A stretch of 64,000 nt of DNA from Phycisphaeraceae bacterium (GTDB taxonomy: Bacteria > Planctomycetota > Phycisphaerae > Phycisphaerales > UBA1924), in contig JAHBXG010000008.1 in assembly GCA_019636565.1 (NCBI GenBank), forward strand, positions 62,001 to 126,000, in the 5' to 3' direction. A model generated the notes under the pieces. It worked only from the letters and a program-made list of their open reading frames with translations, did not search any database and had not been told where the DNA came from. This document shows positions 8,219 to 47,812 of the stretch, in pieces. Both the position numbers and the translations under genes were made by a program. How positions within the stretch are numbered: the stretch's first letter is position 1; the number at the start of each line of letters is the position of its first letter.

Positions 8219-8272
8219 GAGAGTTCCTTTCGTGGGCGGATGCGACTGTTGAGAACTTTGAGCTCCCCTCCC

Positions 8273-8720
<448 letters not shown>

Positions 8721-8731
<11 letters not shown>

Positions 8732-40563: not shown

Positions 40564-40684
40564 GCGAATGGCTCCCAGTGAAATTGCGGTATCCAACCCC
40601 AGCCCCCACCGCCACGCGGCGTGACGGGGTAAGCCAGCCATTCTAGGGGGCTCCCGGCACGATTCCGCACGGGTCCTGTTCGGA

Positions 40685-41857: not shown

Positions 41858-42865
41858 TCACGATACCGCGCCGGTTCGCCCGTTGCCACCCTCGACGGCG
41901 TGCATCAGCGCAAGTAGTTGCTGGGGCGAGAGGTTCTCGGCCCGCGATTTTGGGGTAATGCCCGGCGGATATGCGAATGGTTCGCGAACAGAAAATTTTT
42001 CGCGAAGAATGCCGCCCAGTTGCTTGCGACGCTGCTCAAAGAGGGCCTGGATGAAGTCGGCCAAATCGTGCGACCGGGGCGTGAGCGGATCGGGTCGGCG
42101 GCGGATTGCGATCATCGAACTTGTTACATCGGGGCGGGGCCAAAAGCACTCGGGCGGCAGCTTTGCGACGCGCTCGACGTGCGCCGTCGCACTGGCAATA
42201 ACGGAAAGCGGTCCGTAATCCGCGGTATCGGGCGCCGCTCCGAGGCGGTCGGCAACCTCTTTCTGAACCGTGACAAAGAGGCCGGAGCAGTTGGGATAGT
42301 CGAGCAGGAGGTTGGTGATGAGGGGCGTGGCAGCGCCGTACGGGAGGTTGGCGATGAGGCGGAATGAAGGTGCCGAGGAGCCGGGGTGACGAGATGTTGA
42401 GGGGGAAGCAAAGCCGGGCGAAACGTTCAGACTTGGCTCTGGTGTTCCCACTCGCTCCTTCACGATTCCTCGCCCACCCTCTGCCACCTCCCTCGGCGAG
42501 AGAGATTCAGAGAGGAGCCTTCGCAATTCGGGGTTGAGGGCGCGTTTTCCGTCGAGGCAGTCACCGTGGATGAGGGTGAGTTGGCCGCCGGCGATTTGAG
42601 GGGCAAGTCGGTCCAGAAGGAGGCTGTGAAGGCCGTTGTCCAGCTCGCAGGCGACCACTCGTACGCCGCGGGAAAGCAATTCTTCGGTGAGCACGCCTGT
42701 GCCGGGCCCGATTTCGAGGACGAATTCGCCGGGCTGGACGCCCGAGAAATCGACCAGTTTTCGGATAAGGTTGTGATCGACAAGGAAATTCTGGCCAAGA
42801 GACTTCTTCGGGGCGAGGCCCCGTGCGGCGAGAAGGTCTTTGATTGATGTCAGTGATTGGGGCAC
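41858..42865 (-). CDS. rsmA: 16S rRNA dimethyladenosine transferase with an in-frame insertion
   Basis: A 335-residue RsmA/KsgA that dimethylates two adjacent adenosines near the 3' end of 16S rRNA. Motifs: KKSLGQNFLVD (20-30), EIGPGTGVLTEEL (51-63), ACELDNGL, GDCLDG and the catalytic NLPY (173-176). Between GDCLDG and NLPY, where relatives have about 30 residues, there are about 70; the extra part (about 119-167) is Ser/Pro/Arg-rich (LSPREVAEGGRG at its start) and looks like an inserted repeat element. The start is a GTG at 42865. It reads divergently from the DUF4375 gene. Confidence 0.93.
   Translation of the reverse strand: MPQSLTSIKDLLAARGLAPKKSLGQNFLVDHNLIRKLVDFSGVQPGEFVLEIGPGTGVLTEELLSRGVRVVACELDNGLHSLLLDRLAPQIAGGQLTLIHGDCLDGKRALNPELRRLLSESLSPREVAEGGRGIVKERVGTPEPSLNVSPGFASPSTSRHPGSSAPSFRLIANLPYGAATPLITNLLLDYPNCSGLFVTVQKEVADRLGAAPDTADYGPLSVIASATAHVERVAKLPPECFWPRPDVTSSMIAIRRRPDPLTPRSHDLADFIQALFEQRRKQLGGILREKFSVREPFAYPPGITPKSRAENLSPQQLLALMHAVEGGNGRTGAVS
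42365..42511 (-). repeat. In-frame insertion within rsmA
   Basis: About 147 bases (49 codons) interrupt the conserved part of rsmA without breaking the frame. It contains CCTCCCTCGGCGAG (42487-42500), matching the arsC/arsM junction at 8267 except for one base, and on the minus strand CTCAACATCTC, similar to CTCAACCTCTC in the aat insertion. Confidence 0.55.
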
Positions 42866-46918: not shown

Positions 46919-47812
46919 CTATGCACCGGCATTTTCAAATGGCTTCCACCCGATGAATTGCGGCGCGAGCGCTGCGAGGCGGGCGAGATACTCCTGACGC
47001 GGCATCTCATACATCCCAAACTGCGCTGTGTGGTGGTTGGCCAACTGGGCATCGAGCAGTTCAAAGCCCCGCGCTCGCAAGTGGGTTACCAGATGGACGA
47101 GGCAGACCTTGCTGGCATCGGTGCCGCCTAAATCGGCGCGATGGAACATGGACTCTCCACAAAAGACCTTGCCGAGAGCGAGGCCGTAAAGACCGCCGAC
47201 GAGGACGCGGGGAGAGGTTGAGGTGTGAGAAGCAGTATCAACCCGTCCCCCAACTCGTTCACTTGGAGAACTGGCTTCCGACCAGGCCTCGATGCTGTGG
47301 GCGTGGCCGTGTTTGTACAGGAGGATGAATGCTTCAACGATTTGCGGCGCGAGCCATGCGGAGTTGACGGCTTCGCCTTCGGGTCCTTCGCGGGGCGAAG
47401 CGGCGCACGCCCGGATCACGGCTTCGAAGGCACGGTCGCTCGTAATCGTGAATCGGCGTGAACGAACGCGCTGGGCGAGCGACTTGGGAACGTGAAATCG
47501 ATCGTCCAGCGGGATGATGGCCCGGCGACGGGGTTGAACCCATTCGATTTCAGGGTCCCCATCCACTCCCGGGCGATCCGGAGCGGCCATGGGAAACCAG
47601 CCCTGGGAATACGCCTCAAGCAGGCCGGCGACCGCCCGGGATTCACTCGCGGCGTCGGCGGGAGATTGTGCGGACGAATCTGGTCTCACGGCAGGCTCGT
47701 GAAATCGTTGGAGAGCGAAACCCAAAGAGAGGAAGGCCGCCGGACTTCGGCTCGGGCGGCGCGGAAATAGGCCCCCCGCCCCACTCCGACCCCCGATCTC
47801 CGCGTTCACCAA
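46919..47812 (-). CDS. aat: Leucyl/phenylalanyl-tRNA--protein transferase with an in-frame insertion
   Basis: A 297-residue Aat that adds Leu or Phe to N-terminal Arg/Lys of proteins, marking them for ClpAP. Family motifs: YSQGWFPMA (68-76), VLVGGLYGLALGKVFCGESMFHR (203-225, read as two adjacent blocks) and ANHHTAQFGMYEMPR. Relatives are about 230 residues; the excess is a 55-residue N-terminal extension and an insertion of about 25 residues (178-202, SEASSPSERVGG...) before the GGLYG block. The start is a TTG at 47812 or the following GTG at 47809, so the first residues are uncertain. Confidence 0.88.
   Translation of the reverse strand: MVNAEIGGRSGAGGLFPRRPSRSPAAFLSLGFALQRFHEPAVRPDSSAQSPADAASESRAVAGLLEAYSQGWFPMAAPDRPGVDGDPEIEWVQPRRRAIIPLDDRFHVPKSLAQRVRSRRFTITSDRAFEAVIRACAASPREGPEGEAVNSAWLAPQIVEAFILLYKHGHAHSIEAWSEASSPSERVGGRVDTASHTSTSPRVLVGGLYGLALGKVFCGESMFHRADLGGTDASKVCLVHLVTHLRARGFELLDAQLANHHTAQFGMYEMPRQEYLARLAALAPQFIGWKPFENAGA
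47207..47281 (-). repeat. In-frame insertion within aat
   Basis: About 75 bases (25 codons) lie in frame just before the conserved GGLYG block. The minus strand contains GAACGAGTTGGG and CTCAACCTCTC, resembling GAGCGAGTGGGA and CTCAACATCTC in the rsmA insertion, in the same order. Confidence 0.5.

Follow-up and report, generated by a model that had tools for sequence, protein, structure and literature searches.

The rsmA gene of a planctomycete of the order Phycisphaerales contains an in-frame insert made of dispersed repeats that were most probably inserted into an RsmA surface loop in an ancestor of one subclade of this genus and have since decayed. The gene is located in a window of 64,000 nucleotides, i.e., the whole stretch of DNA analyzed here (contig JAHBXG010000008.1, positions 62,001 to 126,000), and coordinates given without a locus name refer to this window. 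A first-pass annotation had described the insert as repeat-like and in frame, reminiscent of palindromic elements. We found that it is indeed derived from repeats and in frame, but that it is a composite of three parts and that its own repeat copy is no longer palindromic. The genome containing the window (G000) was compared with seven congeners (G001-G007) and with other genomes, most of which are metagenome assemblies. The findings extend protein-coding palindromes to planctomycetes. Since filled, scarred, and empty sites occur in closely related genomes, the insertion, decay, and tolerance of such sequences in conserved proteins can be followed. They also point to a candidate source, open to testing, of palindromic repeats that lack a known mobilizer, namely DUF559, a common, little-characterized nuclease family.

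A composite insert in RsmA

The open reading frame at 41858-42865 (minus strand; 335 aa with a GTG start) encodes RsmA/KsgA, the 16S rRNA dimethyladenosine transferase (TIGR00755, 201 bits; PF00398), and both models match on either side of the insert. About 47 additional residues, rich in Ser and Pro, lie between the GDCLDG and NLPY motifs, and the reading frame is intact. The first-pass annotation, which placed the insert at 42365-42511 (minus strand, 49 codons), had noted an unusually long link at this position, and comparison with relatives bore this out: the span from GxGTGxLT to NLPY is 116 aa in this RsmA versus 66-70 aa in most of the family. It is 104 aa in G006 and 71-72 aa in G001, G003, and G005; among the relatives compared it ranges from 60 to 116 aa, the maximum being the protein encoded in the window. 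In an AlphaFold2 model based on a 23-sequence alignment, most of the core has pLDDT values above 90, and residues 121-167, between helix 112-119 and strand 168-173, have low pLDDT and no secondary structure. The insert is predicted to be a disordered surface loop upon an intact fold, and RsmA would presumably remain functional with it.

The insert consists of module A (42473-42508), a middle part of 71 bp (42402-42472), and module B (42369-42401), all on the minus strand. Module A is a decayed copy of a dispersed palindromic repeat, identical to its consensus at 28 of 36 positions, a level that none of 20,000 shuffled sequences equaled. Module B is a repeat of 8-bp units (CTCGACAC-like) and shares 28 of 33 positions with a copy in truD. 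When the insert was searched against its own genome, one significant second place was found, in truD (E 4.8e-5, through module B), and the middle part had no significant second copy. Copies of modules A and B were also found in other genes.

Modules A and B in conserved genes

Genome searches revealed that both modules are dispersed in G000, G002, G006, and G007. Module A (in truD, GAAGCCCCTTCCCCGAGGGAGGGGGTTCGGG) is a repeat of 38-41 bp with a 9-bp GC-rich hairpin. The consensus of 42 aligned copies is TTCnGAAGCCCCCTCCCCGAGGGAGGGGGTTGGGGG(T/AA)GGG, and in nine of these copies one stem pair is altered on both sides. With a covariance model, at least 67, 37, 97, 7, 12, 40, 69, and 87 copies were detected in G000 to G007, respectively, each count being a lower bound. 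No Rfam family matches module A. Module B (in truD, CTCGACACCTCGTCACCTCGACACCTCGGCACC) is an array of 8-bp units that resembles a short tandem array, often opposite an inverted array, and it may simply share permissive loops with module A.

Module A or B is present in frame within more than a dozen conserved genes, including truD, asnS, valS, dnaE, deoC, and pyrD, and the copies are read in several frames and on both strands. In the own genome, domain models are found on both sides of the repeat in TruD, HupE/UreJ, HMG-CoA lyase, and AsnRS. In congeners, the models run across the repeat or border it in AsnRS, ValRS, DnaE, DeoC, MqnE, methylmalonyl-CoA mutase, dihydroorotate dehydrogenase, an E2 subunit, and an FAD oxidoreductase, and the repeat adjoins domains of GTPase Der, Mfd, and RNase HII. 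The surplus can be seen against the models: in AsnRS of G002, 504 residues cover 449 positions of the model, and in PyrD 347 cover 298. The commoner core variant of module A has no stop codon in any frame, so that most insertions with a net length divisible by three stay readable. A T-loop variant has a stop in one of six frames, and the TTCT-GAAG junction gives rise to a TGA in one frame as well.

The truD gene of the own genome encodes the in-frame insert SEAPSPREGVRVGKEFSSSLDTSSPRHLGTS, whose DNA corresponds to module A plus module B. Both modules are present at this site in G000 and G002, a B-like remnant is present in G003, and the site is nearly empty in G006, whose TruD is 92% identical over conserved TruD columns. 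Comparison of the filled and near-empty truD sites revealed no clear target-site duplication. The rsmA and truD copies each contain a single module A, not two inverted ends. A second site of variable in-frame inserts lies further downstream in truD of G001, G002, G003, and G005 (L258, L260, L261, L262); in G002 it includes the module-A-like peptide SPREGEGGG. Immediately upstream of the truD start in L258 (G002), PLCPFAPLPLCPFAPLPLCPFA is encoded by a tandem run.

The insert had initially been likened to the palindromic elements of Rickettsia (RPEs), and the likeness is valid as an analogy but not as membership. Both types of repeats are short, palindromic, dispersed in the genome, and located in frame within many conserved genes, where they are tolerated in loops, and the host genes of both include tRNA synthetase, pseudouridine synthase, and polymerase genes. 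The palindrome is a property of the module A family, not of the decayed copy in the window. The likeness is one of features; the tag differs, and the host, a Phycisphaerales planctomycete, belongs to an unrelated phylum. Module A is about 40 bp long, whereas RPE-1 is roughly 100-150 bp. Module A is also associated with a DUF559 gene, and we know of no such association reported for RPEs.

Palindromic repeats inside genes have already been described in a PVC bacterium, Opitutus terrae, and the intragenic REPs of this and other organisms occur in genes including dnaE, truB, and those of tRNA synthetases (PMC3733652). Like module A, GTAG/CGTC REPs are hairpins, of 20-40 bp, that are mostly intergenic but in some cases lie inside dnaE and tRNA synthetase open reading frames. 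Module A differs from them in that it lacks the GTAG/CGTC tag (in the 42 aligned copies, the tag position is mostly GAAG and never GTAG) and was not found at the ends of the eight RAYT loci fetched.

DUF559 genes with inverted ends

In the own genome, the HMG-CoA lyase gene (L089) contains an in-frame DUF559 domain bracketed by two inverted copies of module A; no other DUF559 gene was detected in this genome, and none was detected in G003, G004, and G006. At this locus, module A serves as the terminal inverted repeat at either end of an element that carries a gene. The same order (module A, DUF559, module A, with inverted ends) occurs at the same HMG-CoA-lyase site in G001, G002, and G007, and in G009, G073, G088, and G120 the arrangement recurs with ends of different or related sequence. 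The site is unoccupied in G013, G022, and G030, and in G003 it holds one module-A-like scar (21 of 25 positions; none of 5000 shuffles as good). The link in G005 was considered as a further scar and rejected (608 of 5000 shuffles as good). In the host protein, the nuclease domain appears either to be retained or to be removed by a deletion.

The position of a nuclease domain, in frame at a fixed site of a conserved gene, is reminiscent of inteins and other in-frame homing endonuclease elements. Unlike inteins, the fused open reading frame has no detectable splicing domain around DUF559: Pfam and NCBIfam searches returned only HMG-CoA-lyase-like, DUF559, and related models. Module A is also similar to MITEs, i.e., short non-coding derivatives that share their end sequences with the inverted ends of an element carrying a gene. 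It differs from these in that typical copies are single-ended, that its partner encodes a Vsr/DUF559-type nuclease and not a known transposase, and that no clear target duplication was seen in the truD comparison.

Inverted repeats accompany DUF559 genes well beyond this site. Within the family, an inverted repeat (score of at least 20) surrounds 22 of 33 DUF559 loci, versus none of 126 shifted controls and one of 66 rsmA flanks, the controls being simple shifted windows and rsmA flanks. In a sample of the phylum, inverted repeats occur at 10 of 27 DUF559 loci versus 0 of 105 controls, and at a score of at least 16 the corresponding numbers are 18 of 27 and 1 of 105. Among DUF559 genes on plasmids of Cyanobacteria, Deinococcus, and Alphaproteobacteria, 7 of 10 have inverted repeats, most of them C-rich hairpins, that score at least 18. 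In G138, a single-contig genome, the end of a DUF559 element recurs elsewhere, with several near-full-length solo copies. Our literature search found no link of DUF559 to palindromic or inverted repeats, mobility, or transposons. A Caulobacter protein, VsrA, belongs to the same domain family (Vsr-like, PD-(D/E)XK) as the domain in HMG-CoA lyase; it was studied as a putative mismatch-repair endonuclease, in a paper that does not mention palindromes (PMC12907096).

Several loci have additional features. Imperfect direct duplications flank the DUF559 elements of L209 (53 bp; 1359-1411 and 1929-1981) and L200 (39 bp; 1223-1261 and 1902-1940) and give the impression that part of the target was duplicated by the element. 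The DUF559 genes of L197, L198, L199, and L205 are flanked on both sides by direct repeats of about 145-180 bp, in which several C-rich hairpins occur. Plasmid DUF559 genes are found within conserved operons, i.e., between sufB and sufC, between paaD and paaZ, and among hpa genes (L296, L298, L291, L293), and two Deinococcus species have DUF559 at different positions among the hpa genes.

A possible explanation of this association is that the DUF559 nuclease, a Vsr-like PD-(D/E)XK protein, recognizes the palindromic ends, or cleaves them, and spreads them through copying of the homing or repair type; we consider the chances of this to be slightly short of even. Because each element end is palindromic, about 21 bp of the two inverted ends also match in direct orientation. 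Slippage or recombination between these directly repeated 21 bp or so would delete the DUF559 gene and leave a solo end, and solo copies of module A may have arisen by such deletions between palindromic halves. The repeat may plausibly have originated from the element with its two inverted ends. The mobilizer role of DUF559 is not established, since only one DUF559 gene was detected in the own genome, for at least 67 copies of module A, and none in G003, G004, and G006; the mobilizer could have been lost in these three lineages, or could be something else. A broader proposal, which we advance tentatively and hold somewhat less probable again, is that DUF559 nucleases mobilize widespread short palindromic repeats. 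The C-rich hairpins of Planctomycetota, Cyanobacteria, Deinococcus, and Alphaproteobacteria would then represent the terminal inverted repeats of very small DUF559 elements, together with solo remnants of them; such elements could sit in frame in genes and leave in-frame peptide scars, as in rsmA.

Mobility itself could be questioned. Slippage, template switching, and gene conversion might create and spread palindromic and 8-bp-unit sequences, with DUF559 merely preferring to land there, and both the tandem appearance of module B, with its frequent facing inverted array, and the great excess of module A copies over DUF559 genes would fit such a process. It is unlikely, however, in that module A keeps a defined consensus of 38-41 bp at unrelated sites and that the ends of DUF559 elements carry asymmetric bases beyond the palindrome; these ends differ between genomes and match the dispersed copies of their own genome.

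We regard as slightly less likely still the possibility that module A is a REP that the genus mobilizes with its RAYT (Y1_Tnp) transposases, its presence at DUF559 ends being secondary. Each of the eight genomes of the genus has 1-9 Y1_Tnp genes, module A is palindromic and of REP size, and REPs inside genes have precedent (PMC3733652). However, module A was not found at the ends of any of the eight RAYT loci fetched, the copy in L112 being located in the neighboring methylmalonyl-CoA mutase gene, and several RAYT loci carry GTAG-type repeats of their own, so RAYT is not supported as the partner of module A. These inverted GTAG-type repeats (CTGTAGCCACGGGTG...), found at the RAYT genes of L105, L106, and L109, represent a second palindromic family.

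The rsmA site in congeners

The history of the insert can be read from the same site in related genomes. Alignment of RsmA sequences showed no insert at the GDCLDG-NLPY link of G001, G003, and G005. The nearest congeners, with 88-90% identity in the rsmA core, also have inserts, and these differ in sequence: PSPREGVGGGSAISQLAS... in G006 and PSPREGVGGGQIISQPAS... in G007. In G002 the insert reads SGQSDYVAGAAPPTPRRLDISTPS. At this site, G006 and G007 carry an intact, near-perfect module A that, unlike the copy in the window, retains the palindrome; with covariance scores of 69.7 and 68.1 bits, these are among the best copies of the genus. The corresponding parts of rsmA in G002 and G004 were not significant as module A (796 and 628 of 5000 shuffles, respectively, as good). 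The insert is restricted to one subclade and varies between close congeners, and many other copies lie inside genes; it is neither conserved across the order nor alone in its genome. We propose that a dispersed palindromic repeat entered the permissive RsmA loop in an ancestor of G000, G006, and G007, and probably of G002, and later decayed in the own genome; the repeats would have survived because the frame was kept.

The signs of decay are clear in the window's copy: under the covariance model it reaches only 10.1 bits (E 0.73), four stem pairs are broken so that the palindrome is lost, and there is no folding excess (z 0.07). The annotation had also pointed to a motif, CCTCCCTC(G/A)GCGAG, shared with the arsC/arsM junction. 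The motif is exact at both sites (42487-42500 and 8267-8280) and absent elsewhere in the window at up to two mismatches, but as a lone 14-mer it is not significant (2 occurrences in the window versus 2.06 expected). It becomes meaningful because the two sites are also the window's top matches to a 38-bp module A consensus that was derived from other loci, with scores of 20 for rsmA and 18 for arsC/arsM, the next being 14. The partial module A at the junction (8265-8288, minus strand) overlaps the end of an arsC-like open reading frame (8273-8731). Weak covariance matches on the minus strand at 47220-47284 (15.6 bits) and 40569-40660 (14.6 bits) are possibly decayed copies.

An ordinary, lineage-specific Ser/Pro loop of low complexity, grown by small indels and resembling GC-rich repeats by chance, could account for the variation in loop length across the order, the predicted disorder, the weak covariance score of the window's copy, and the long loop of unrelated sequence at the same place in G019 rsmA. 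This explanation is improbable and is largely refuted by the module A copies that G006 and G007 carry at this site; the shuffling result and the match of module B to truD also speak against it. The annotation's reading of the insert as repeat-like and in frame is largely right. An artefact of assembly or binning is hardly credible: the host genome is a metagenome assembly of 112 contigs, 90.6% complete, but independent assemblies, among them G002 with its four contigs and family members assembled into a single contig, have such repeats in genes and at DUF559 ends.

A different repeat-like insert is present at the rsmA link in G040 (L034/L152) and in L164, with the peptides NAECGMRNAE...EIRIP and SAECGVRSAE...EIRNP, derived from AATGCGG-type repeats. 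Because these inserts represent a different repeat, the rsmA loop seems to accept unrelated repeats repeatedly.
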